Notes under the pieces: model-generated
What the model saw: the letters and a program-made list of their open reading frames with translations, nothing else
Databases searched by the model: none
Told to the model about the DNA's origin: nothing
Part shown: positions 9,181 through 52,138 of the stretch, one piece after another
Numbering within the stretch: the first letter of the stretch is position 1
Layout: every line of letters begins with the position of its first letter
Assembly (NCBI RefSeq): GCF_002934605.1
Contig: NZ_PTJC01000005.1
Location: forward strand, 1,178,001-1,242,000
DNA: 64,000 nucleotides
Reading direction: 5' to 3'
Source: Neolewinella xylanilytica
GTDB taxonomy: Bacteria; Bacteroidota; Bacteroidia; Chitinophagales; Saprospiraceae
Program-made: the position numbers and the translations under genes

Positions 9181-10122
9181 ATGATCCCACCCCTGTTCAC
9201 CGTAATCATCTGCACCTACGACCGGTCCGACTTACTGCGCCATTGCCTCGACTCGCTGGCGGACCAAAGCGACGCGCCCGAAGACTGGGAGCTCCTGGTC
9301 ATAGACAACAATAGCACCGACGCCACGCCGCGGGTAACCGACGACTTCCTGGCCGCCCATCCGCAACTGAACGGCCGGCGCATCCGTGAAGCACAACAGG
9401 GGCTAAGCCACGCCCGCAACCGCGGTTACCGGGAGGCCGCCGCCGACTGGGTCATCTACCTGGACGACGACGCCCGGGCCGATCGGCGGTTCCTCGCGCG
9501 GACCGCCGAGCTCGTTCGCGATCGCCAATACCGTATCGTCGGTGGCGTTTACTACCCCTGGTACCACTACGGCCGGCCGGATTGGTACCGGGACCGCTAC
9601 GCCAGCAACGCCCTGCCGGCCTACCGCAGCCTCAGCGTTCCCCCGGCAAACTACGTGGCTACCGGGGGGGTCATGCTGTGGGAGAAGAACCTCCTGGCCG
9701 AACTGGGCGGCTTCGACCCGCGGGTGGGCATGGTCGGCAAGCGCATCGCCTACGGGGAGGAGACCTACCTCCAGGCCAAGGCCCGGGCGCGGGGCATCGC
9801 GGTGGCCTATGACCCCCGGCTGATCATTTACCACGTGGTGATACCGAAGAAGCTTTCGGTCGACTGGTTCTTCCGCTCCTACTTCGCCGCGGGGCGGGAC
9901 GCGGTGCTCGGCGGTAAAGTGAAGCCCGGATTCTTTTCCCTCGCGAAGGAACTACTCCTGGCCGCTGGAGTTATGACTAAGGATCTCCTTTGGTACACCC
10001 CGCGTTTATTAGGGCCTGATTATTACCTGGAAAACTGGCTCATCGACGTGTTTCGGAAGGTGGCTAAACGCGTCGGTACCGTCTACACCGCCTTGCTGCA
10101 TGATCGAGTTACTCACCGCTAG
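9181..10122 (+). CDS. Glycosyltransferase family 2
   Basis: The product has 313 residues, taking the ATG at 9181 as start. The upstream in-frame extension to 9082 runs over the decayed gene and the -7 box and is not credible. GT-A motifs: FTVIICTYDRSDLL, IDNNSTDATP, SHARNRGYREA and the metal-binding motif IYLDDDARAD near residue 96. FDPRVGMVGKRIAYGEETYL is the acceptor-site ED region. A C-terminal hydrophobic/amphipathic stretch (FFSLAKELLLAAGVMTKDLLWY) may sit on the membrane. It overlaps the next gene by 23 bases. It is the third GT2 enzyme of the locus; the donor sugar is unknown. Confidence 0.88.
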   Translation: MIPPLFTVIICTYDRSDLLRHCLDSLADQSDAPEDWELLVIDNNSTDATPRVTDDFLAAHPQLNGRRIREAQQGLSHARNRGYREAAADWVIYLDDDARADRRFLARTAELVRDRQYRIVGGVYYPWYHYGRPDWYRDRYASNALPAYRSLSVPPANYVATGGVMLWEKNLLAELGGFDPRVGMVGKRIAYGEETYLQAKARARGIAVAYDPRLIIYHVVIPKKLSVDWFFRSYFAAGRDAVLGGKVKPGFFSLAKELLLAAGVMTKDLLWYTPRLLGPDYYLENWLIDVFRKVAKRVGTVYTALLHDRVTHR

Positions 10123-11742: not shown

Positions 11743-12691
11743 AAGGAGTGAATTTTTGAATTAGTGAGGGACTGAATGGGGCGGCACAGTAAGCCCCTGG
11801 CTACGCGCGGCGCGGGTACGCAGATAGACGAAAGTAAGGCGGGCTATGGACTGAAAAGGGCGGGACACTAGGTGCCTGGCTACGCGCGGCGCGGGTACGT
11901 AGAGTAGATAGACGAAAGTAAGCCGGGCTATGGACTGAAAAGGGCGGGACAGTAGGTGCCTTGCTACGCGCGGCAAGAGTACGGAGATAGGCGCTCGTAA
12001 GTTGGGCTAGGGACCGAAAAGGGCGGGACAGTAGCGGCCTTGCTATGCGCGGCACGAGTACGCAGATAGGCGCTCGTAAGTTGGGCTAGGGACCGAAAAG
12101 GGCGGGACGGTAGCGGCCTTGCTACGGGCTGCACGAGTACGCAGATAGGCGCTCGTAAGTTGGGCTAGGGCTGAAAAGGGCGGGACGGTAGCGGCCTTGC
12201 TACGCGCGGCAGGAGTACGCAGATAGGCGCTCGTAAGTTGGGCTAGGGACTGAAAAGGGCGGGACAGTAGCGGCCTTGCTACGGGCTGCAGGAGTACGCA
12301 GATAGGCGCTCGTAAGTTGGGCTAGGGCTGAAAAGGGCGGGACAGTAGCGGCCTTGCTACGCGCCGCGCGGGTACGCGGATAGGCGCTCGTAAGTTGGGC
12401 TAAGGACTGAAAAGGGCGGGACGGTAGCGGCCTTGCTACGCGCCGCGCGGGTACGCGGATAGGCGCTCGTAAGTGTGGGCTAAGGACTGAAAAGGGCGGG
12501 ACGGTAGCGGCCTTGCTACGGGCTGCAGGAGTACGCAGATAGGCGCTCGTAAGTTGGGCTAGGGACCGAAAAGGGCGGGACAGTAAGCGCCTTGCTACAC
12601 GTGGCATCCGTGCGCACCGACCCGAGCGCAGCGAGGGGCCAGCCTCCAACGGCCCCATTCAGTCCTTCAGTCCTTCAGCCCTTCACTCCTT
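11743..12691. repeat. Imperfect inverted repeat bounding the tandem array
   Basis: The left arm (11743-11782) and the reverse complement of the right arm (12652-12691) share AAGGAGTGAA at the outer end and the 14-base GGACTGAATGGGGC at the inner end, at the same spacing (40 bases each). The middle of each arm differs. The arms enclose the whole 79-bp array. The right arm runs up to and overlaps the stop codon of the M23 gene; the left arm starts 11 bases after the stop of the AspT-type gene. No coding sequence lies between the arms. Confidence 0.7.
11769..12609. repeat. 79-bp tandem repeat array, about 11 units
   Basis: The motif CTGAAAAGGGCGGGAC (with C/T variants) recurs at 11772, 11851, 11935, 12014, 12093, 12171, 12250, 12328, 12407, 12487 and 12566, a period of 78-80 bases apart from one step of 84. 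Each unit carries the small dyad GTAGC-GGCCTT-GCTAC and then a variable segment that alternates between three forms (ACGCGCGGCA, ACGGGCTGCA, ACGCGCCGCG). The left-most units are the most diverged. The period is not a multiple of three and unit lengths vary, so the open frames across it change phase and are not credible genes. It fills the gap between two convergent genes. Confidence 0.9.
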
Positions 12692-42101: not shown

Positions 42102-45100
42102 TTACCGAAGGATTACCAGCTTCTCCAAATCGCCGTTGACGACGTTCGATCCATCGCCCTGCAGCCGGACCTGGTAGAGATATACCCCGCGGGCAAGCTG
42201 GTCGCCGTAGTCGTCCAGGCCGTCCCACTCGATGCAGTCGTCCTGGCGGATGGAACCGTCGCTGATCGCGAAATCGGCCTCCAGGGACTTGACCAGTCGG
42301 CCACTCACCGTATAGATCTGGATCAGCGCGTTCACTTCCTGGCCGATGAGGGTGTGGTCGAACTGAAAGCAGGTGGAGGTGGTGAACGGATTAGGATAAT
42401 TCAGGACGTGGGTCAGGGCATCCCCCATATCCGAGGCAACGATGAATTCCGTGGTCTCTACCGTGCTGTTGTTCGCTACGTCCCAGGCGCGTACCGTAAC
42501 GGTATGCAGGCCGGGTTCGAGGTCGAAGAGGGGGTAGCGGACTTTCCCGCTGCGGTAATTGTCGATGTCGGCTTCGTAATAGTCGTTGAGGACGATCGGG
42601 TTACGGGAATCCTCGTCGAGGACGGCTTCCAGGTCGTGACCGATGCTGTTGCCGGTAACGTTGATTCCGAGGTCGTCGGTAAGGTGCAGCAGTAGGACCG
42701 GATCCTCGGATACCTCTCCTCCGGCTACGAAATCGGTGTTGTCGAGATACACCTCGATCGCGGGGCCCTCGTCGTTGGCCGCGGTGTCGTCTCCCGTTCC
42801 CCCGATGATGAGGCGGTCGTAAAAACCGGCGGCGTCGATCCGCTGACCCTTATCGGCGGCGTAATAGCTGACCTTGGCCGGCCCGAAGGAATAGTCGATA
42901 TCGTTCGGCACCACGAATTCGAAGGAAAACTTACCGTTGGTAACGGTAGCCCGCCCCCGGAAGACGATGTTTCGTTGCACTTCGATTTCCAACAGGGGGC
43001 TGTCGCTGTTCTGCTGCAGGGTGGAGATGGTCTGCGCCTTATCGTAAATGGTGGGAAATACCTCCCCGTTGAAGTTCGAAAGGAGTACGCTGTCAAGGGT
43101 GATCACTTCCCCGCTGATGCGAACTTTTTGTAGCGCGCGGACGGTATCGGTGCGGGCCATGTCTGCCGGTAGGGTGTCGATCATGGTGGTCCGAACGCTG
43201 TGACGCGGCAGGGCGAGCACGGTGGCCGGGTCGCCGAGCAGGGTATACTTCCGGGCGTTCTCCGTGTCGCTCTTTAGAAAGTTGGCGTCGTCGACCGGGG
43301 TTGTTTCGTTTTTGGCGATCCGGATGATATCCCCGAGGCTCGGCCATTCCCCGTTCGTCCGGTCGAGCATGGCCTGCACCGTATTGTTGGTCAGCTGGTA
43401 GTTGCGGGTGGCGAATACCGGCCGCGTGGTGGTCATGAGGGCGATTACACCGCCATTCGGGGTTAGCAGGGCTTCCTCTCCCGCACTCACGAAGGAGGCG
43501 TCGTCGTAATTGCTAAACGTGCAGGTGGCGGTAATAAAGACCGGGGGCTGGATGGGGTCCGGCGCGTTTTCGGGGCGTGTCCAGTTTCGGATCTGGGGGA
43601 TCGTCAGTACGCGTTCCTGGGCCCACCCTCTCGGGCCGCCGTGCCCCAGGTAGGTGACGGCCATGGCGCCGCGGAAGATAGCCCGGTCGAGTCCTTCGGT
43701 AATGGCGGGATAGCGCTCACCGGCCGAAATACTTTGTTGGGGGTACAGATCGAAGTAAAGCTTGTCGAAATTGAGGTCCGGTTTGCGACTTTCCACGGCG
43801 TTAGCTACGCGATTGACGTCAATCGTATGGCGGCCGCGGTCTTCGTCGTCTCCCACGAACACCATGCGCGTACGCCAGTCGCCGAGGGTGGACGGATCGG
43901 TATCGTAGCGAATCAGCTTATCCACCAGCGGACCGGCTTCGTCGGCCGATTTAACGGGCAGCCGACCGACGGCGATACTCAGGTCCGGGGCCAGGGGCTC
44001 GTTGCCGTAGGCATCGGTCATGATGCCGTAGAAATCGTCCGCGGGGAAACTGCTTACTTCCGTGAAGCTTCCCTCGTGTTGGAAAACGGGGATGAAATTC
44101 GTCCCTAACTTGTAGATATTCCGGTGGTCGAAGCTGCCATCGCCGAAAAGGAGGAGGTACTTCAGGGCGGGGTCACGTTCGTAAACCATCCGGACGAAGT
44201 TGCGGATGGCCGCCGGGTCGTCGCGGCCGCTGCTGAACTCATGGTAAATCTGCTGGGTGGTGACCAGGCGCACGTTGTAGCCATTGTGGCTGCGGCGGTG
44301 TTCCGCCAGGTTTTCGGCCTGACTAAGGAACTCCGGGTGGGTTACGATGATCATATCCGCCCGGTCGATCCCATGGAGGTTCTGATTGGCTACCTTGCCC
44401 ACGGCGCGGGGTTCCAGTCCGGCGGTAGAACGGAACGCCACGTATTCATACGACGTACCGGCGGGGGCGGTGAACCGGCTACCCGAGAGGTTGGCTTCCA
44501 GGGCTTCCGCGCCGTCTACCCGCCAGACCCGGGTATCGGCTGGCGGGTTCAGGAATTGGAAGGTCACAGCCGTGGCGGCGGCCGTACGGGTGTCGCGAAA
44601 CGGGAACTGCGTAAGCGACCCGAAACTGAGGCGCCGTCGGGCGCGAAGCTGAACGTAATCGAGCCAGGCCTCACTGCGGGCGGCACCGCCGGGCCGGGGA
44701 TAAACAACGGTCACGTCCAGGCGATCCGTAGTGGCCGTAATCGAGCCCGACAGGCCGGTCGATCGGGCGGCGGGGCTCTGCTCCTGCGCCCCGTAGGTGA
44801 CGGCGGAGGCGAGGGAGCTCACCACTTCGGTCCCGTTCACTTCCACGATATAGCGGCTGGATGTTTCGGCCCGCACGGCCATATTCGCCCGCACGCCCAC
44901 CGGTTCGGTGGTCACCAAGTCCGGAAATACGAAGGTGGGATAGGCTTTTTCGCGGTTGGCTTCGAAGTGTTCGCCCCACCAGCTTTGTCCGGAGCCGTGG
45001 CTGTTCCCGTCCAGTTCGTGCAGGATATTGTAGGCATCCTCTTCGTAATGGCGGACATCGTCGAAGGCATCGGTGACCGTTCCGCCGGAGCTTGCCGGCA

Positions 45101-45977
45101 GGGGGCTTACGCGGCGCCCGCGGCCGGGCACGTTGAGCTGCAGGTAGTAATAGTTTTCGGTGGCGTAGATATTCTTTTCCAGCCCGAAGCGATCGGCAAC
45201 CGCATCGTAGGTTTGCCGGTCGGGTCCTTCGGCGTAGAAGAGGATAAAATCACCGCCGTCGAAGCGACCGTCGGACTCTCCTTCGATGTAGATCGCCAGT
45301 TCGGGCAGGTCGTCGGGGGGGGTGAGGTTCGTAACTTCGGGGAGCATGCCCCCCCGCTGGCCGTATAGTTTGATGTCGCGGGGGTCGATGCCCTCCAGCC
45401 CCGTCACCTTTAGCGCATCCGTGAGGAAGGAGCGGGATAAGCGGTGGATGCCGCTCGTGGTAACCGCGATTCGGTAAATATCCCCCTGGCGCAGTACGGA
45501 TTCGGTAGCGAAGGAATTCAGCGATTTCGGGTTCGGCTTGCCAGCTTCCGGGACCAGGCGGAGATCGACCGAAGTGAGGCGCTGCAGCCCGGTAGGGGAG
45601 TTGATGACCGATGGTCCGCTGATCTTTCCCAGCCACCCTTCGGGCTGGAGCGACGCGGCGTAACTAAACGAGAAGGCGGTTTCCTCGGGCGGCTCGAATC
45701 CGGACGGGGGAAGAAAGGCTTCACTCTCCAGACCGGCAATTTCGACGCGGTAAGCACGTCCGTCGCCGGGTTTCAGGGTATGGAGAAAGGGAGGAAGTTT
45801 GCCGGTATGCAATGCTCCCGCGTCCCCGCCCAAGGTGTACGAAAGCACCACGCGGCGGTTACCCTCCCATTCCACGACCGTCGGCTCTTCCCAATTAAGC
45901 ACCTGAGAAACAGCGAGCTGCGCACCGAGCCCCGTGGAGATGAGTAGGCAGAAAAGGGGCAGAAGAAACTTGGGCAT
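42102..45977 (-). CDS. porU: Type IX secretion system sortase PorU
   Basis: The product has 1291 residues from the ATG at 45977, the start of the signal peptide (KFLLPLFCLLISTGLGAQ). The central part is a C25 (gingipain-type) cysteine peptidase: DDFYGIMTDAYGNEPL, SIAVGRLPVKSADEAG, MAVTYLGHGGPRGWAQE with the catalytic His, and PVFITATCTFSNYDD with the catalytic Cys. The C-terminal part has the FlgD-like and sorting-type end (LTHVLNYPNPFTTSTCFQFDH, DQLARGVYLYQVRL). PorU cuts the C-terminal signal from T9SS cargo and attaches it to lipid at the cell surface, so the cargo at 873 is a likely substrate. It is divergent from the porP-type gene, as is common for T9SS genes in this phylum. Confidence 0.93.
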   Translation of the reverse strand: MPKFLLPLFCLLISTGLGAQLAVSQVLNWEEPTVVEWEGNRRVVLSYTLGGDAGALHTGKLPPFLHTLKPGDGRAYRVEIAGLESEAFLPPSGFEPPEETAFSFSYAASLQPEGWLGKISGPSVINSPTGLQRLTSVDLRLVPEAGKPNPKSLNSFATESVLRQGDIYRIAVTTSGIHRLSRSFLTDALKVTGLEGIDPRDIKLYGQRGGMLPEVTNLTPPDDLPELAIYIEGESDGRFDGGDFILFYAEGPDRQTYDAVADRFGLEKNIYATENYYYLQLNVPGRGRRVSPLPASSGGTVTDAFDDVRHYEEDAYNILHELDGNSHGSGQSWWGEHFEANREKAYPTFVFPDLVTTEPVGVRANMAVRAETSSRYIVEVNGTEVVSSLASAVTYGAQEQSPAARSTGLSGSITATTDRLDVTVVYPRPGGAARSEAWLDYVQLRARRRLSFGSLTQFPFRDTRTAAATAVTFQFLNPPADTRVWRVDGAEALEANLSGSRFTAPAGTSYEYVAFRSTAGLEPRAVGKVANQNLHGIDRADMIIVTHPEFLSQAENLAEHRRSHNGYNVRLVTTQQIYHEFSSGRDDPAAIRNFVRMVYERDPALKYLLLFGDGSFDHRNIYKLGTNFIPVFQHEGSFTEVSSFPADDFYGIMTDAYGNEPLAPDLSIAVGRLPVKSADEAGPLVDKLIRYDTDPSTLGDWRTRMVFVGDDEDRGRHTIDVNRVANAVESRKPDLNFDKLYFDLYPQQSISAGERYPAITEGLDRAIFRGAMAVTYLGHGGPRGWAQERVLTIPQIRNWTRPENAPDPIQPPVFITATCTFSNYDDASFVSAGEEALLTPNGGVIALMTTTRPVFATRNYQLTNNTVQAMLDRTNGEWPSLGDIIRIAKNETTPVDDANFLKSDTENARKYTLLGDPATVLALPRHSVRTTMIDTLPADMARTDTVRALQKVRISGEVITLDSVLLSNFNGEVFPTIYDKAQTISTLQQNSDSPLLEIEVQRNIVFRGRATVTNGKFSFEFVVPNDIDYSFGPAKVSYYAADKGQRIDAAGFYDRLIIGGTGDDTAANDEGPAIEVYLDNTDFVAGGEVSEDPVLLLHLTDDLGINVTGNSIGHDLEAVLDEDSRNPIVLNDYYEADIDNYRSGKVRYPLFDLEPGLHTVTVRAWDVANNSTVETTEFIVASDMGDALTHVLNYPNPFTTSTCFQFDHTLIGQEVNALIQIYTVSGRLVKSLEADFAISDGSIRQDDCIEWDGLDDYGDQLARGVYLYQVRLQGDGSNVVNGDLEKLVILR

Positions 45978-46096
45978 ATACGGTCGATGAGGTGCGAAAA
46001 TAAGATACGCCGTCAGGCGGGAAACGTTGTCCCGGGCCGGCAGATTGCCGGCGGGGGCAGGCCAGCTGTCGTAGGGGCGACGGCTGGGCAGCGCAA

Positions 46097-46128
46097 TTTG
46101 GAAACCGCTTACCCAGGGAGTAGCTTTA
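46097..46128 (+). promoter_or_regulatory. Promoter of the porP-type gene, predicted leaderless
   Basis: A -33 TTTG at 46097-46100 is followed after exactly 20 bases by the -7 box TAGCTTTA at 46121-46128. The ATG at 46132 is only three bases further on, so transcription should start at the start codon. This is the best-formed example of the start-adjacent promoters in the window. Confidence 0.55.
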
Positions 46129-46131
46129 GGC

Positions 46132-47142
46132 ATGCGCAATCTTTATTTTTTACTGTTTGCCCTATTGTGCGGTCTGGAGGCGGTCCAGGCCCAGGACGCG
46201 GTTTTTTCGCAGTTCTATGCTTCCCCGCTTCAGCTAAATCCGGCCTTTACCGGGGTTAGCGCCGCGCCGCGGATCACGTTGAACTATCGCAGCCAACACA
46301 CGAGCTACCCCAGTGCCTACCGCACCTTCGCCGCAAGCTACGAACAACCCGTGGCGAACTCTCCCTCCAATTTCGGTATCCGGCTGCTGACCGACAGCCA
46401 ACTCGAGGGACTGTACAAAACCAGTCAGCTAGCCTTCGTCTATGCTTACGACGTACGCATCAACCAGGACTTTCACGCCAGAATCGGACTGAGCGGCGGT
46501 ATTCTCGACAGCCGGATCGACTATAACGGCTTGGTCTTTGGCGACATCATCGATCCGACCGACGGTCCCGGCGGGGTTTCCGAAGAGCAATTGGAGGCTG
46601 CCTCCAGAACCTCCGTCGATCTCGGTACCGGAATTCTGATTTACGGGAAGAACGTGTACGGCGGACTGAGCATCGAGCACCTTAACCGACCGGACGAGGG
46701 GCTCCTTGCCCTGGACGATAACCTCTATGCCGGGAGGCCCCAGCGGTTTAGCCTCCATACGGGGGCTCAGTTCGACCTCAAGCGCTACAGTAATCCGCGC
46801 CGGCCCGCCTACGTTACCCCCAACGTACTCTTCACCAGTCAGGCCAATTTCCAACAACTGAACATGGGAGCCTACTTCGGCTACGGAGCCTTTTCATTGG
46901 GGGGGTGGTACCGTCACGCTTTCGGAAACGCGGACGGATTCATCGCCGCCGTCACCTTCCGGGAGGATATACTACGGATCGGTCTGAGCTACGATAGCGT
47001 CATTTCGGCGCTGCGGAGCGTACCCGGTGGCCTGGGAGCGACCTTTGAAGTCAGCTTTACGATCGATTTCGGCGACAGCCAGGAGCTGCAGCGGCGGCGG
47101 CACGCGGACCGGTACAACGACTGCCTGGGCATGTTTCGTTAG
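46132..47142 (+). CDS. PorP/SprF family T9SS outer membrane protein
   Basis: The product has 336 residues: a signal peptide (YFLLFALLCGLEAVQAQ), then the family start DAVFSQFYASPLQLNPAFTG and beta strands to FEVSFTIDF. PorP/SprF proteins are outer-membrane barrels that associate with the PorK/PorN ring or act as anchors for particular type B cargo such as SprB. It faces porU across a 154-base gap. The C-terminal tail (QRRRHADRYNDCLGMFR) is basic and outside the barrel. Confidence 0.93.
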   Translation: MRNLYFLLFALLCGLEAVQAQDAVFSQFYASPLQLNPAFTGVSAAPRITLNYRSQHTSYPSAYRTFAASYEQPVANSPSNFGIRLLTDSQLEGLYKTSQLAFVYAYDVRINQDFHARIGLSGGILDSRIDYNGLVFGDIIDPTDGPGGVSEEQLEAASRTSVDLGTGILIYGKNVYGGLSIEHLNRPDEGLLALDDNLYAGRPQRFSLHTGAQFDLKRYSNPRRPAYVTPNVLFTSQANFQQLNMGAYFGYGAFSLGGWYRHAFGNADGFIAAVTFREDILRIGLSYDSVISALRSVPGGLGATFEVSFTIDFGDSQELQRRRHADRYNDCLGMFR

Positions 47143-47590: not shown

Positions 47591-49144
47591 ATGGAGGATA
47601 TCCAGGAACTTTTAGAGATCGCCTCTGGAAAAAAAGTAGCCAAGCTGCTCAAAATCAGCCAGGCGAAGGGAAAGCAATCCATGATTGCCGAGCTACACGC
47701 CCTGATCAAGAAGGGAAATCTGGAAGAAGACGATATCGTGGAGCGGCTTTACGGCGTCGGAGCTACCAGCAGCCATGCGGCTTATCGCGCGCTGAAGGGC
47801 CGCTTGCGGGATTTGATCACTACCGCCATAATGGACGATGACGTCTATTCGGCAAACTACCGTACCTACGACGAGGCCCAGGTCAACGGCTACCAGCAGC
47901 TTAATCTCATCAGCCTGTTGCTCACCCGCCGGGCGTGGCAAAGCGTCAAGTACCTGGCGCATCTCACCCTGCGAAGGGTACAGGACTACGAGATCCTTCC
48001 CATCAACAGCCGGCTGACTTCCATCCTGGCAAGTCTGTATTTGGGGGTTGGATTTGACGACAAGCGCTTTTCGAAGTATCAGGAACTGGCGGACTATTAC
48101 GCTCGCGCGGAGTGGGTGCTGAATAAAGTGACCAGTCGGTACCGGGAGATGCGGAGAATGATTTACACGCATAAACTGCTACCCAACGAGATTGGATCCA
48201 CCGTGTCCGAGTTCGTAGCCGAATGCGAACCCGAGGTGAAAAAGTATCCCAAGGTGTCCGCCATGCAGGCGATGTTTTATATGATGAAGGTGCACAGCCT
48301 AACCCTGTTGGGGAACTACCTCGAAGCGATCCATACGGCGAACGAGGCGGAGATCGTGCTGCGCAACTGCAAGGGGGCCGGGAATCAGTCGTTGTCCCTC
48401 ATGGCGCTAACGCGCGTGGAATGCTCGGTCAAGCTAAAGGACTTTAAGGAGGGATATTTGCAGGTGAAGCGGGCGAAGGCCATGATCGCGGAGAACTCGA
48501 TCAACGACCTGAAGCTTTCGGAATACGCCATAACGCTGGGGCTGCAAACCGGGCATTACGATTACGCTTACGAGCAACTGGCTCAGGTGGATCGCGCCGC
48601 CCTAAAGCGGTTGCTGAAGCAGCAGCACGTGGAGTACTGGTTTATCCTGGAGGCGTATATTAATATCCTGATTTTGTCCGGAATGATCGATCCCGCCAAA
48701 ATGCAGGGAACGCTACCGGACTTCAAGCTATCCAAATTTGTCAATAACGTACCGTCCTATTCGAAAGACAAGCAGGGAATGAATATTCAGATCCTGATCC
48801 TGCAGGTCATTTACTTCATTATTCAGCAGCAATACGGAAAGGTGATGGATCGGACCGATGCCCTTAGCCGCTACGGTAGCCGCTACTTGATGAATAACGA
48901 AAACTTACGGAACAACTGCTTCTTTAAGCTGCTGCTTACCGCCAACAAATGTGAATTTCACCGGGCGGCAACGATGCGGAAGTCAAGTAAAACGTATCAG
49001 AAAATGGTCAGCCCGGAAGCGAAGAAACTCGGTAGGGCCAACAGTACCGAAATGATCCGGTACGAAACACTATGGGAGATCGTGTTGCAGAACCTGGATG
49101 ATAAAGCTCCCGACCGTAGGCGCATGCGGATGCCAGCCAAATAA
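47591..49144 (+). CDS. Large helical (TPR-like) protein of unknown function
   Basis: The product has 517 residues, nearly all predicted helical, with repeated helix pairs such as LGNYLEAIHTANEAEIVLRN, LKDFKEGYLQVKRAKAMI and TGHYDYAYEQLAQVDRAALK, consistent with a TPR-like superhelix. It has no signal peptide and no catalytic motif. The N-terminus (EDIQELLEIASGKKVAKLLK) is charged and the C-terminus basic. It ends 36 bases from the tail of the repeat-peptide cluster and is convergent with it. I do not recognise the family. Proteins of this kind often act as scaffolds or peptide-binding adaptors; any link to the peptides is a guess. Confidence 0.8.
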   Translation: MEDIQELLEIASGKKVAKLLKISQAKGKQSMIAELHALIKKGNLEEDDIVERLYGVGATSSHAAYRALKGRLRDLITTAIMDDDVYSANYRTYDEAQVNGYQQLNLISLLLTRRAWQSVKYLAHLTLRRVQDYEILPINSRLTSILASLYLGVGFDDKRFSKYQELADYYARAEWVLNKVTSRYREMRRMIYTHKLLPNEIGSTVSEFVAECEPEVKKYPKVSAMQAMFYMMKVHSLTLLGNYLEAIHTANEAEIVLRNCKGAGNQSLSLMALTRVECSVKLKDFKEGYLQVKRAKAMIAENSINDLKLSEYAITLGLQTGHYDYAYEQLAQVDRAALKRLLKQQHVEYWFILEAYINILILSGMIDPAKMQGTLPDFKLSKFVNNVPSYSKDKQGMNIQILILQVIYFIIQQQYGKVMDRTDALSRYGSRYLMNNENLRNNCFFKLLLTANKCEFHRAATMRKSSKTYQKMVSPEAKKLGRANSTEMIRYETLWEIVLQNLDDKAPDRRRMRMPAK

Positions 49145-49180: not shown

Positions 49181-49267
49181 CTACAGGATGATATCTTCTA
49201 CCATGGCTGGATTGGGTTGTATCCCCGTAGGGAAAGGTGTACGATGAAGGATATAGATAGATTCTGC
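49181..49267 (-). other. In-frame remnant ending in MVEDIIL behind the first repeat gene
   Basis: After the TAG that ends the repeat gene (49268-49270), the same frame stays open for 28 codons and ends QPNPAMVEDIIL at the TAG 49181-49183. The last seven residues are identical to the end of the 27-residue peptide at 50722-50805. It has no start codon other than the ATG of MVEDIIL itself. It may be a decayed second peptide gene or an extension lost through a nonsense mutation. Confidence 0.5.
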
Positions 49268-49765
49268 CTAAGCGCGGGTAACGATATCTTCGACAACGAT
49301 GTTCGCACTGGCTAGTTCGGTGCCCCGGGTTACAATGTCTTCGACAACGATGTTGTTACTGGCCAGTTCGGTGCCCCGGGTTACGATGTCTTCGACAACG
49401 ATGTTGTTACTGGCCAGTTCGGTGCCCCGGGTTACGATGTCTTCGACCACGATGTTGTTACTGGCCAGTTCGGTGCCCCGGGTTACGATGTCTTCGACCA
49501 CGATGTTGTTGCTGGCTAACTCGGCGCTGCGGGTTACGATGTCTTCGACCACGATGTTGTTGCTGGCTAACTCGGCGCTGCGGGTTACGATGTCCTCGAC
49601 CACGATGTTGTTGCTGGCGTAGGTTACGATATCTTCTACGACGATGTTGGCGTAGGTTACGATGTCCTCGACCACGATGCTGGGGGTGAGATCGCCCAGG
49701 CTTTCAAAGGCGGTGCGGGCGGCTTCGAGGGTTTCGGGAGTAAAGAGGTTTACAAAGAATTCCAT
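49268..49765 (-). CDS. Repeat peptide 1: leader plus nine IVVEDIV repeats
   Basis: The product has 165 residues. A 29-residue leader (start MEFFVNLFTPETLEAARTAF) is followed by nine copies of IVVEDIV. The first two units are short (10 and 13 residues, ending in TYA or TYASN); then come 17-residue units, NIVVEDIVTRSAELASN twice and NIVVEDIVTRGTELASN four times (the last ends ASA), and a final truncated unit ending TRA. There is no Cys, Lys, His or Trp and no signal peptide. Leader plus near-identical acidic cores looks like a multi-core precursor of a modified peptide, but a repetitive beta-rich structural protein is also possible. The strand was chosen because only this one gives Met-leader-repeat-stop in three paralogues. 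TATCTC directly precedes the ATG. Confidence 0.8.
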   Translation of the reverse strand: MEFFVNLFTPETLEAARTAFESLGDLTPSIVVEDIVTYANIVVEDIVTYASNNIVVEDIVTRSAELASNNIVVEDIVTRSAELASNNIVVEDIVTRGTELASNNIVVEDIVTRGTELASNNIVVEDIVTRGTELASNNIVVEDIVTRGTELASANIVVEDIVTRA

Positions 49766-49822
49766 GAGATAGGTCTTAAGCGAGAGAAAAATGCGAGGCG
49801 TGAGTGGGAAGTTGGGGGAAGA

Positions 49823-50167
49823 TCAGGCGCGGGTCACGATGTCCTCGACGACGATGTTATTGCTGGCTAACTCGGCGCTGCGGGTTACGATGTCCTCGAC
49901 GACGATATTGTTGCTGGCTAACTCGGCGCTGCGGGTCACGATATCCTCGACCACGATATTGTTGCTGGCTAACTCGGCGCTGCGGGTCACGATGTCCTCG
50001 ACGACGATGTTGTTGCTGGCGTAGGTTACGATATCCTCGACGACGATGTTGGCGTAGGTCACGATGTCTTCGACGACGATGCTGGGGGTGAGGTCGCCCA
50101 GGCTTTCAATGGCGGTGCGGGCGGCTTCGAGGGTTTCGGGAGTAAAGAGGTTTGCAAAGAATTCCAT
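49823..50167 (-). CDS. Repeat peptide 2: leader plus six IVVEDIV repeats
   Basis: The product has 114 residues. The 29-residue leader differs from that of repeat peptide 1 at two positions only (Val to Ala in MEFFANLF, Phe to Ile in ARTAIESLG). Six repeats follow: two short ones ending TYA and TYASN, three of NIVVEDIVTRSAELASN and the short last unit ending TRA. Promoter-proximal and downstream flanks match those of gene 1, including TATCTC before the ATG. It lies 57 bases upstream of gene 1, so the two are probably on one transcript. Confidence 0.8.
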   Translation of the reverse strand: MEFFANLFTPETLEAARTAIESLGDLTPSIVVEDIVTYANIVVEDIVTYASNNIVVEDIVTRSAELASNNIVVEDIVTRSAELASNNIVVEDIVTRSAELASNNIVVEDIVTRA

Positions 50168-50224
50168 GAGATAGGTCTTAAGAGGGAGAAAAATGCGAGG
50201 CGTGAGTGGGAAGTTGGGAGAAGA

Positions 50225-50638
50225 TTAGGCGCGGGTCACGATGTCTTCGACCACGATGTTGTTGCTGGCGAGCTCGGTGCCACGGGTCACGATGTCCTCG
50301 ACCACGATGTTGTTGCTGGCGAGTTCGGCGCCACGGGTCACGATATCTTCGACCACGATGTTGTTGCTGGCGAGTTCGGCGCCGCGGGTTACGATGTCTT
50401 CGACCACGATGTTGTTGCTGGCGAGCTCGGTGCCACGGGTCACGATGTCCTCGACCACGATGTTGTTGCTGGCGAATTCGGCACCGCGGGTCACGATGTC
50501 CTCGACCACGATGTTGTTGCTGGCGTAGGTTACGATGTCTTCTACGACGATGTTACCGGCAAGCGTATTGAAAAAATCTACGGCAGCTTGTGCGGTTTCG
50601 ATAATTTCGGGAGAGAGAAGTTCGTTGATGAATACCAT
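50225..50638 (-). CDS. Repeat peptide 3: divergent leader plus seven IVVEDIV repeats
   Basis: The product has 137 residues from the ATG at 50638; a much longer frame upstream has no leader character. The leader (MVFINELLSPEIIETAQAAV) is different in sequence from the other two but has the same length, charge pattern and helical amphipathic look. Seven repeats follow, with TRGAEFASN, TRGTELASN and TRGAELASN variants, and the same terminal TRA. Conservation of the repeat together with a changed leader indicates that the repeats are under selection. It is 57 bases upstream of gene 2. Confidence 0.8.
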   Translation of the reverse strand: MVFINELLSPEIIETAQAAVDFFNTLAGNIVVEDIVTYASNNIVVEDIVTRGAEFASNNIVVEDIVTRGTELASNNIVVEDIVTRGAELASNNIVVEDIVTRGAELASNNIVVEDIVTRGTELASNNIVVEDIVTRA

Positions 50639-50672
50639 GATGAAAGTTTGTTTGAGAAAGAGACTTGAGAAA

Positions 50673-50692
50673 ATCACCCCGCTTCGGGTGAT
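50673..50692 (-). terminator. Hairpin with T tract between the short peptide and the repeat genes
   Basis: On the minus strand ATCACCC and GGGTGAT form a seven-base-pair stem followed by TTTTCTC. It lies after the 27-residue peptide gene (ends 50722) and before repeat peptide 3 (starts 50638), so it could end most transcripts there, acting as an attenuator for the repeat genes. Confidence 0.45.
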
Positions 50693-50721
50693 GGTGAAAG
50701 AAAATTCGAAAACCGGCGCGA

Positions 50722-50805
50722 TTAGAGGATAATATCTTCTACCATGATTCTTGTGGGTTGTGGCCTGGGTCGGCCGGATGAGGAGAATCGGTTTAGTGTT
50801 TTCAT
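50722..50805 (-). CDS. 27-residue peptide ending in MVEDIIL
   Basis: It is a small gene: ATG at 50805, TAA at 50722-50724. The product begins MKTLNRFSSSGRPRPQPTR and ends MVEDIIL, so a basic, Pro/Ser-rich leader of about 20 residues is joined to a single core like the IVVEDIV of the neighbouring genes. It is the first gene of the cluster in the direction of transcription. TATCTC directly precedes the ATG, as in repeat genes 1 and 2. A -7-like CATCTTTG is at 50842-50849. Its reality rests on the shared core and context, since it is too short for codon statistics. Confidence 0.6.
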   Translation of the reverse strand: MKTLNRFSSSGRPRPQPTRIMVEDIIL

Positions 50806-50849: not shown

Positions 50850-50940
50850 CGGGGTGGGGTGAGCCGGAATTGCAGCACTTTTCGACCGGGAAATAGGTCG
50901 AAATTCGAACATTAAATCGCGCAAAATTTCGTAAAACAAA

Positions 50941-50970
50941 GAAAGCCAGTGTCTTGCGGCACTGGCTTTC
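50941..50970 (-). terminator. Rho-independent terminator after phoH
   Basis: GAAAGCCAGTG and CACTGGCTTTC form an 11-base-pair stem; on the minus strand it is followed by TTTGTTTT. It lies 37 bases after the phoH stop and insulates the repeat-peptide cluster from phoH. Confidence 0.8.
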
Positions 50971-51006
50971 TTGTTATACGGAATATAATAAATACAATAA
51001 ATTGTC

Positions 51007-52050
51007 TTAATCTCCGGGATTTTCCGTGATTTCCTCGTCCCGCCGGCTTCTTCCTGGCGCACCCAATCGCTCGAAGGTGCTTTCCGGTGGTGGACCGAAG
51101 CGTCCGCGCCCCTCCGCTTCGTCGTCGGCGTCGTAAGCTTTGATGATCGCCTTCACGAGCCGGTGGCGCACGACATCCTCGGCGGTAAGGCGTATGATGG
51201 CGATTCCCTTAATCGGAGCGAGGATATTTATCGCCCGCCTTAGGCCGGATACCTGATTACGGGGTAAATCCACCTGGCTCAGGTCACCGGTCACGATGCA
51301 CTTGGCGGAGGGCCCCAACCGCGTCAGAAACATTTTGATCTGCGAGGTGGTGGTATTTTGGGCCTCGTCCATAATCACGAAGCAGTTGTCCAGCGTCCGG
51401 CCCCGCATATACGCGAGGGGCGCGATTTCTATTGTGCCGTCTTCCCGAAACTTGTCCAGCCGCTCCCGGGGGAGCATATCGTCGAGGGCGTCGTAGAGCG
51501 GGCGCAAATAGGGATCGATCTTGTCTTGCAGGTCACCGGGTAAGAAGCCGAGGCTTTCTCCCGCTTCCACCGCCGGCCGGGTAAGGATGATCTTTTTGAC
51601 CAGCTTATTCTTCAGGGCGCGGATAGCCAGGGCGACGGCCGTATAGGTTTTGCCGGTACCGGCGGGCCCGACGGCAAACACGATATCGTTGGCCTCGGCG
51701 GCCTCGATCATCACGAACTGATTCGGCGTACGGGCCTTGATGGGCTTACCGTTCCGACCGAACACGATGGTCTTGTTCGCACTGCCGGTACCCAAGCGGG
51801 TCTGAAAGGGGTTCTCCCCCGCCAGCAGGTCCTCCACGGTGTGGGTGCTGAGTTCGCGGTTATCCAACAACAGCCGCATCATCAGTTCCAGATGATGCTT
51901 GATCTTTTGGGCTTCCGGTTTTTCGGCCTTAATCTTGATGTTCGTCCCCCTCTGGGTGACGGTTGCCTCGGGATAAGCCGACCGAATCAGGTTCAGCTTA
52001 TTGTTGTTTTCCCCGAGCAAGGAAACGGGATCTACCCCGTTGATTGACAT
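51007..52050 (-). CDS. phoH: PhoH family ATPase
   Basis: The product has 347 residues from the ATG at 52050; a TTG five codons upstream is possible. Walker A is VGPAGTGKTYTAVALA, Walker B region FVIMDEAQNTT, with LTRPAVEAGESLGFLPGDL, AYMRGRTLDNC and TGDLSQVDLPR, all standard for PhoH. An N-terminal KH-like part (IKIKAEKPEAQKIKHHLELM) is present. PhoH proteins are cytoplasmic ATPases linked to RNA metabolism. A terminator follows. Confidence 0.95.
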   Translation of the reverse strand: MSINGVDPVSLLGENNNKLNLIRSAYPEATVTQRGTNIKIKAEKPEAQKIKHHLELMMRLLLDNRELSTHTVEDLLAGENPFQTRLGTGSANKTIVFGRNGKPIKARTPNQFVMIEAAEANDIVFAVGPAGTGKTYTAVALAIRALKNKLVKKIILTRPAVEAGESLGFLPGDLQDKIDPYLRPLYDALDDMLPRERLDKFREDGTIEIAPLAYMRGRTLDNCFVIMDEAQNTTTSQIKMFLTRLGPSAKCIVTGDLSQVDLPRNQVSGLRRAINILAPIKGIAIIRLTAEDVVRHRLVKAIIKAYDADDEAEGRGRFGPPPESTFERLGAPGRSRRDEEITENPGD

Positions 52051-52138
52051 TACGATTTCGCTCAAACGATTGATTTTTAGCCCCGTGGACGGTTACGGGG
52101 CAATTGATCTACTTAACTACCTACGGGAGGGCAAAGTT

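Follow-up and report, generated by a model that had tools for sequence, protein, structure and literature searches.

An acidic-hydrophobic core motif in multi-core, single-core and seven-codon genes beside a TPR-like protein gene of Neolewinella and its relatives

The stretch of Neolewinella xylanilytica DNA analysed here (the window, 64,000 nucleotides of one contig) carries three adjacent minus-strand genes, each encoding a 29-residue leader followed by tandem units built on the core IVVEDI. Multi-core precursor gene 1 (50225..50638) encodes 137 aa with seven units, gene 2 (49823..50167) 114 aa with six units and gene 3 (49268..49765) 165 aa with nine units. The array is bracketed by two seven-codon open reading frames (mini-ORFs) on the same strand, both reading MVEDIIL, one on the 5' side (50722..50745) and one on the 3' side (49181..49204). 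The latter lies 36 bp from the stop of a plus-strand gene (47591..49144), convergent with the array, whose 517 aa product is predicted to be an alpha-solenoid resembling tetratricopeptide repeat (TPR) proteins and is proposed here as the binding partner of the cores. The original prediction, made from the sequence of the window, had correctly reported three minus-strand genes with leader and tandem cores; it had missed the two mini-ORFs, the convergent 517 aa gene and the single-core relatives elsewhere.

All three repeat proteins finish in IVVEDIVTRA, which bears out the shared ending reported earlier. The 17-residue unit then proposed is present as one spacing, and period-51 arrays were recovered independently by Tandem Repeats Finder in these genes; it is not a uniform unit, the cores being 11, 13 and 17 residues apart in the window and 11-17 apart across species. 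Arginine is the sole basic residue of the window units and follows IVVEDI[VI][TM], the exceptions being TYA variants, with which some genes begin (one or two units), and the terminal IIM forms. The family was rightly called unrecognised: no Pfam or NCBIfam model matches the repeat proteins over its curated cut-off, the nearest matches staying under it, among them UL74A with 23.4 bits (cut-off 27) and TIGR04497 with 25.2 bits (cut-off 32).

Homologues with an intact repeat frame, on which the original prediction had made itself depend, do exist in related genomes. Eight multi-core loci were found in a scan of genome contigs, all from Lewinella, Neolewinella or a Saprospiraceae metagenome-assembled genome, with the IMCC34183 genome split over two of them (L009 and L014). 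The multi-core profile matches nine of 21 genomes of the genus at E <=1, and one repeat protein matched two of 150 genomes in a first sample of the family, the window genome among the two. The twelve multi-core genes read have 6-10 units each (the L009 gene is cut by a contig end after seven), and two species have proteins ending exactly in IVVEDIIM together with a mini-ORF MVEDIIM. Ten peptide-profile matches in other genera (E 0.006-0.05) were treated as chance because they lack a TPR signature and the frames read were mostly parts of unrelated long ORFs; one weak match within the genus lies at G317:C29 (E 0.016).

The core was searched for at the DNA level without regard to frame (12 genes from eight sources, i.e. 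the window and seven loci; at most 6 mismatches in 18 bases). All 100 segments that passed are in frame and none is out of frame, 97 being cores and three noise. Pairwise differences among them, noise included, number 10,818, 790 and 691 at codon positions 3, 2 and 1; for the leaders, aligned from a fixed start, the corresponding figures are 914, 397 and 800, so that the core is constrained much more strongly than the leader. There is selection on the core peptide sequence. An earlier count of 98 units (10,285 third-position, 97 first-position and 0 second-position differences) is circular and no evidence by itself, since the units had been chosen by their peptide and synonymous change was built in.

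The peptide family is present without the multi-core form in eight further genomes of the genus (G301, G344, G336, G116, G397, G328, G266 and G283), where its genes were read in the stretch adjoining the orthologue of the 517 aa gene, the same slot as the array of the window. The encoded proteins (39-48 aa) combine a related leader with a single core at the extreme C-terminus, which reads IVVEDVAI, AIEDMIL, IVVDDLML, VVIEDIPM, IVVEDVVL, TVINDLML, ITIEDIML or IVIEDVLL. Seven of the eight genomes also carry mini-ORFs (MTEDILI, MIDDIML, MVDDLML, MIEDILI, MVEDVVL, MIDDIML and MTDDIML). The genes stand in tandem repeats of 169-357 bp in six genomes, one G397 copy being masked by N, and as single copies in G328 and G283. 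Tandem copies within the six species differ 329, 126 and 36 times at codon positions 3, 1 and 2. The seven short forms counted contain no lysine, arginine or histidine and thus have no basic n-region and no classical signal peptide. Broken copies of the peptide gene are found in G116 and G344; the G344 remnant (L078, about 9801-9887; G344:C39:140800-140886) has one in-frame stop, follows the last intact copy and points to birth and death of copies.

Three results lead us to take the mini-ORFs as genes that are probably translated: their restriction to the slot, their pattern of nucleotide change and the context of their starts. A degenerate mini-ORF pattern, drawn up after the slot had been seen, has 34 matches in the 21 genomes of the genus, 32 of them in the slot (16 genomes), against nine for the reversed-pattern control. 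The stricter pattern has 15 matches in eight of 396 genomes of the order, all of them in the genus and in the slot, with one for the control. The mini-ORFs listed number 33 in all, 30 of them distinct when flanks are included. For the frame-blind test, confined to the multi-core clade and to a consensus derived from that same clade, 4797 segments outside the repeat genes of ten multi-core slots were compared with the consensus at up to 9 mismatches in 24 bases; 16 segments passed and all 16 are intact mini-ORFs. Their 20 mismatches in codons 2-6 all fall at third positions, and over the 24 bases the mismatches number 31, 5 and 2 at positions 3, 1 and 2. Four opposite-strand segments also lie under the threshold (8-9 mismatches) and resemble near-complements of mini-ORFs by sequence. 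An earlier synonymous count (200/200) was discarded as circular, the sequences having been chosen by peptide. The 15 bases 5' of the mini-ORF ATG hold 0.7 G on average (the same stretch averages 4.3 G in 1558 other short ORFs and 2.5 G over 9886 overlapping non-coding positions in the slots), and a pyrimidine pair precedes the ATG in all distinct mini-ORFs as against 20% and 31%, respectively. The 28 distinct starts of peptide genes are likewise poor in G (0.4), with the pyrimidine pair in 71%. The C-terminal residue of the heptapeptide is L, I, M, F or Y.

The frame of the 5' mini-ORF of the window continues upstream without a stop as far as an in-frame ATG, 20 codons before its own, and the mini-ORF could form the tail of a 27-codon frame; the upstream frame is open in some other mini-ORFs as well. 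The upstream frame is closed within 2-6 codons in eight of the 33 mini-ORFs and within 12 codons in 16; given these closed frames, the idea that mini-ORFs are tails of longer ORFs was rejected for the family, and some single loci could fit it. Outside the slot, a lone MIEDIIL mini-ORF (L146:3845-3868, minus strand; G317:C33:76844-76867) has a G-poor start and surroundings that look phage-like by eye; it could be a chance match, the control pattern occurring about 0.4 times per genome. Another, MVEDLLL (L147 around 3746; G356:C1:756745-756768), overlaps the start of a minus-strand gene in a G-rich context and is probably a chance match. The strict heptapeptide pattern has five matches in viral contigs, every one with TGG at the stop position, so none of them is a mini-ORF.

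The 517 aa protein has no Pfam or NCBIfam match at E <=1. AlphaFold2 models it as an all-helical solenoid (mean pLDDT 68.5), and the best Foldseek matches of the model are TPR proteins, namely KLC1 with peptide (E 0.011), MalT domain III and LGN; RapH ranks 43rd and RapF 49th. A profile of 28 members of this TPR-like family finds the KLC1 TPR in the PDB (E 0.0016), and Pfam TPR_2 is found in three of the 28 members (best E 0.0086). A helix-turn-helix had been suspected by eye at the N-terminus, from a SARP-like pattern; an N-terminal profile of 24 members gave no support, its matches in the PDB being no better than E 0.87.

The peptides and the 517 aa gene are linked. Full-length orthologues (at least 39% identity) are present in 17 of the 21 genomes of the genus, with 502-519 aa in 16 and 561 aa from the first ATG in one, and all 17 genomes have peptide-family matches (E <=1e-8) beside the orthologue, the array of G390 being interrupted by a contig break. 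In the slots measured, array and TPR-like gene are always convergent and lie -4 to about 156 bp apart. On the other side of the array lies phoH (51007..52065, minus strand), its upstream neighbour and a syntenic marker of the locus. The linkage looks closer to the TPR-like gene than to phoH, because a paralogue in G344 (G344:C35) has its own 51 aa peptide 4 bp from its stop, again in convergent orientation and without a recognised phoH within the 10 kb listed, and because in G301 (L077:7657-12481) two paralogues of the 517 aa gene flank the peptide array, one on each side. Among the linked orthologues aligned, R185 is kept in 11 of 11 and R188 in 10 of 11, both residues being mostly different in 15 unlinked paralogues; these arginines are candidate contacts for the E-D pair of the core.

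We propose, with a probability of about 0.45, that the TPR-like protein recognises the core as a ligand motif, which is made as a free heptapeptide and from single-core and multi-core precursors. The motif would be approximately V-[ED]-D-[ILV] followed by two hydrophobic residues, and it would be supplied in three forms: as a directly translated heptapeptide, as the C-terminus of a small leader-plus-core protein in the more distant members of the genus, and as internal tandem cores in the window and its close relatives. The convergent TPR-like protein is the likeliest receptor, and the acidic-hydrophobic peptide may lie in its superhelical groove. The arginine that follows internal cores is plausible as a cleavage site, at which processing would turn internal cores into C-terminal ones. 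Such a pair would regulate some output, either within the producer cell or between cells. The original suggestion of a multi-core precursor holds in so far as a leader with repeated cores fits a multi-copy precursor, and it is strengthened by the existence of C-terminal single-core relatives and of free heptapeptide genes; the modified, cross-linked peptide that it envisaged has found no support, as discussed below.

Several observations weigh against the ligand proposal. Binding of the core by the TPR-like protein is a prediction, and neither an export signal nor an output of the receptor was found. No Foldseek match is significant at 0.001 (best E 0.011), and the model cannot be relied on over its last 90 residues. 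The heptapeptide resembles the C-terminal core of its own species more closely than in permuted pairs (sum 150 against a permuted mean of 130, fraction 0.003 of all 5040 permutations, seven species), which speaks for the proposal; the test, however, ignores phylogeny. The G283 orthologue has a peptide gene, with a TTG start, and no mini-ORF. Four of the 21 genomes of the genus are without peptides, two of them having distant or partial homologues of the 517 aa protein (G423 and G468, the latter a 39% identical fragment) and two none (G469 and G470). The TPR-like family is found in 287 of 398 genomes of the bacterial family (E <=1e-20) and is widespread without such peptides. No peptide array was found at 43 distinct TPR-like loci of other genera (13 and 40 in two sets, ten shared), nor at eight of nine distant paralogues within the genus (L066 and L070-L076; the exception is G344:C35). 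Given these peptide-free loci and paralogues, the rule that every TPR-like paralogue carries peptides was rejected, and the ancestral job of the protein family does not need them. The survey of other genera has its own limits: the 3' flank of one of the 13 loci was only about 230 bp long, contig ends truncated three of the 40 and in eight of the 40 the TPR signature was not found. The best scores for mini-ORF and small-ORF twins were 1-18 in the 40 loci and 17-29 in eight positive controls, the ranges touching; for three of the controls (window, L080 and L083) the score derives from a small ORF that has a mini-ORF as its own end. The ORF scan admitted ATG starts only and missed the TTG-start gene of G283, which was found by the profile search alone.

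Other explanations account for part of these data. It is rather unlikely that the repeat proteins are a multivalent intracellular scaffold, in which beta-prone cores would self-assemble or cluster a partner and the heptapeptide would cap or seed the assembly without any signalling. Conserved linkers, the many copies, the strands which AlphaFold2 places in the repeats and the absence of a basic n-region in the short forms would all suit it, but the confidence of the model is about 50, the spacing of the units is irregular and free heptapeptides and single-core relatives are hard to square with a pure scaffold. The beta-solenoid or fibre offered as an alternative in the original prediction is disfavoured on similar grounds, namely the 11-17 residue spacing, the relatives with a single unit and a model consisting of two leader helices and low-confidence strands (mean pLDDT 52.9, pTM 0.29). 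Action in cis, whether through arrest of the ribosome or through transcription that runs convergently into the 517 aa gene, with the peptide secondary, is suggested by the short convergent gaps and by the size of the mini-ORFs, which is that of leader ORFs. It is distinctly unlikely, as the variation at third positions indicates selection on the peptide and not on the RNA, the same motif occurs internally in long proteins, and the mini-ORF 3' of the array in the multi-core clade has no further same-strand gene before the convergent gene. Rfam gave a single match, below threshold (26.2 against 55 bits, E 0.083), to a threonine leader on the opposite strand, and an RNA element was rejected.

The multi-core precursor of a ribosomally synthesised and post-translationally modified peptide (RiPP) acted on in trans, such as an ester- or amide-cross-linked graspetide, has the leader with tandem cores in its favour together with the sub-cut-off match to TIGR04497, a putative ATP-grasp target (E 1.3e-5); the best stretch of that match is 14 residues of a repeat. 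We consider it very unlikely, given a core that is more constrained than the leader and free seven-codon genes that offer no leader to a maturase. The original prediction had recognised no modifying enzyme in the window; here no maturase was recognised among four Pfam-scanned neighbours (PhoH, a GAF protein, PorP/SprF and peptidase C25) or among the other ORFs read by eye, the rest of the genome not having been searched. Least credible to us is a toxin or bacteriocin reading, in which small, acidic and amphipathic peptides would be kept in tandem copies and the gene next to them would control them or confer immunity. The tandem arrangement of small genes, seen in six of the eight genomes with the single-core form, and the acidic and hydrophobic character of the peptides recall such systems; against this, the seven short forms have none of the basic residues of cationic membrane toxins, the strongest constraint is confined to a motif of 6-7 residues, and searches gave PADLOC matches at E 0.03-0.04 and nothing over cut-off in Pfam.

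The proposed ligand and receptor invite comparison with the RRNPP family, in which most subfamilies have an N-terminal DNA-binding domain and Rap acts on proteins. The pairs of this family, RRNPP(A), include Rap-Phr, PlcR-PapR, PrgX-PrgQ and Rgg-SHP, and their peptides are described as 5-10 residues long and as typically being the C-terminal part of a propeptide whose gene adjoins that of the TPR receptor (PMC10075063, PMC11343458). Some propeptides are described there as repeating the pheromone in tandem, in one to four copies (PMC11343458), and the default propeptide range of a search for such systems is 10-100 aa (PMC10075063). The locus is similar in having a short peptide gene beside the gene of a TPR-like protein, a C-terminal core and tandem cores. 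It differs in belonging to Bacteroidota and not to Bacillota, in showing no Sec-like signal, in a heptapeptide that is apparently encoded directly by its own seven-codon gene, in having up to ten cores per protein, and in a putative partner without a curated family match or a recognised DNA-binding domain. The single-core forms (39-51 aa) fall inside the propeptide range and the multi-core forms of the window (114-165 aa) outside it. For a receptor of 250-500 aa at -60 to 400 bp from the propeptide, the partner is suitably adjacent and just too long in 16 of 17 orthologues, the remaining one having 561 aa. Export is expected of RRNPP propeptides, by a Sec signal or, for SHP and PrgQ, by PptAB, and the seven short forms have no basic n-region; Firmicutes and their mobile elements are where such systems have been described, and the eight named loci all come from Lewinella, Neolewinella or the Saprospiraceae assembly. 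The locus would thus work like RRNPP pairs while failing some of their defining features, and it is not filed as a member on account of the other phylum, the lack of a visible export signal, the length of the partner and the lack of a curated TPR match and of a recognised DNA-binding domain.

Two further systems share single traits with the locus. The mccA gene of microcin C7 likewise has seven codons, and its product is the functional peptide; the microcin C7 heptapeptide has a C-terminal Asn and its gene neighbours one for a ThiF-type adenylyltransferase. Here the C-terminal residue is another one, the motif recurs in linked proteins, neither an adenylyltransferase nor an exporter was recognised among the neighbours, and no ThiF-type domain was found in the four scanned. 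Graspetides are omega-ester peptides, and their multi-core precursors also have a leader and then repeated acidic cores; in distinction to these, the TIGR04497 match is below its cut-off, no ATP-grasp enzyme was recognised nearby and a core occurs without leader.

No report of these peptides was found in the open-access literature searched, and the locus looks like an apparently undescribed peptide/receptor pair in a group of marine bacteria. That it represents peptide communication in Bacteroidota, with heptapeptides and multi-core precursors yielding one ligand for a TPR-like receptor unrelated in sequence to RRNPP, is a more ambitious claim and an unlikely one; the receptor would then belong to a large family of receptor-like proteins, of which many Saprospiraceae genomes have several paralogues. 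The three genetic formats of one motif within one genus can be lined up as natural stages by which a multi-copy precursor might arise. Seven-codon genes that pass a frame-blind test of synonymous change are unusual, directly testable minimal genes, and the motif offers a possible ligand for a protein whose large family is uncharacterised.

The loci that were read share their syntenic position, a hint of vertical inheritance rather than a phage origin. The latter was rejected, as a tblastn search of the phage collection with one repeat protein was without a match and the pattern matches in viral contigs are not mini-ORFs. Between phoH and the array, after phoH on the minus strand, lies a terminator-like hairpin with a 13-pair stem and a T-run (50939..50972), and the array may therefore be transcribed on its own; the terminator scan found one such element against a mean of 2.1 in shuffled sequences, a count that is not itself significant. 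Beyond the 517 aa gene the window contains a C25-family (gingipain-type) peptidase (42102-46139) and a type IX secretion system protein, PorP/SprF (46132-47142), both of which recur beside the locus in most of the close relatives read; the peptidase might conceivably be the enzyme that cuts behind the arginine of the units. Elsewhere in the window, about 10.5 tandem copies of a 79-bp unit (11767-12598) follow a transporter-like gene, and a repetitive minus-strand ORF of 152 codons spans part of this array.

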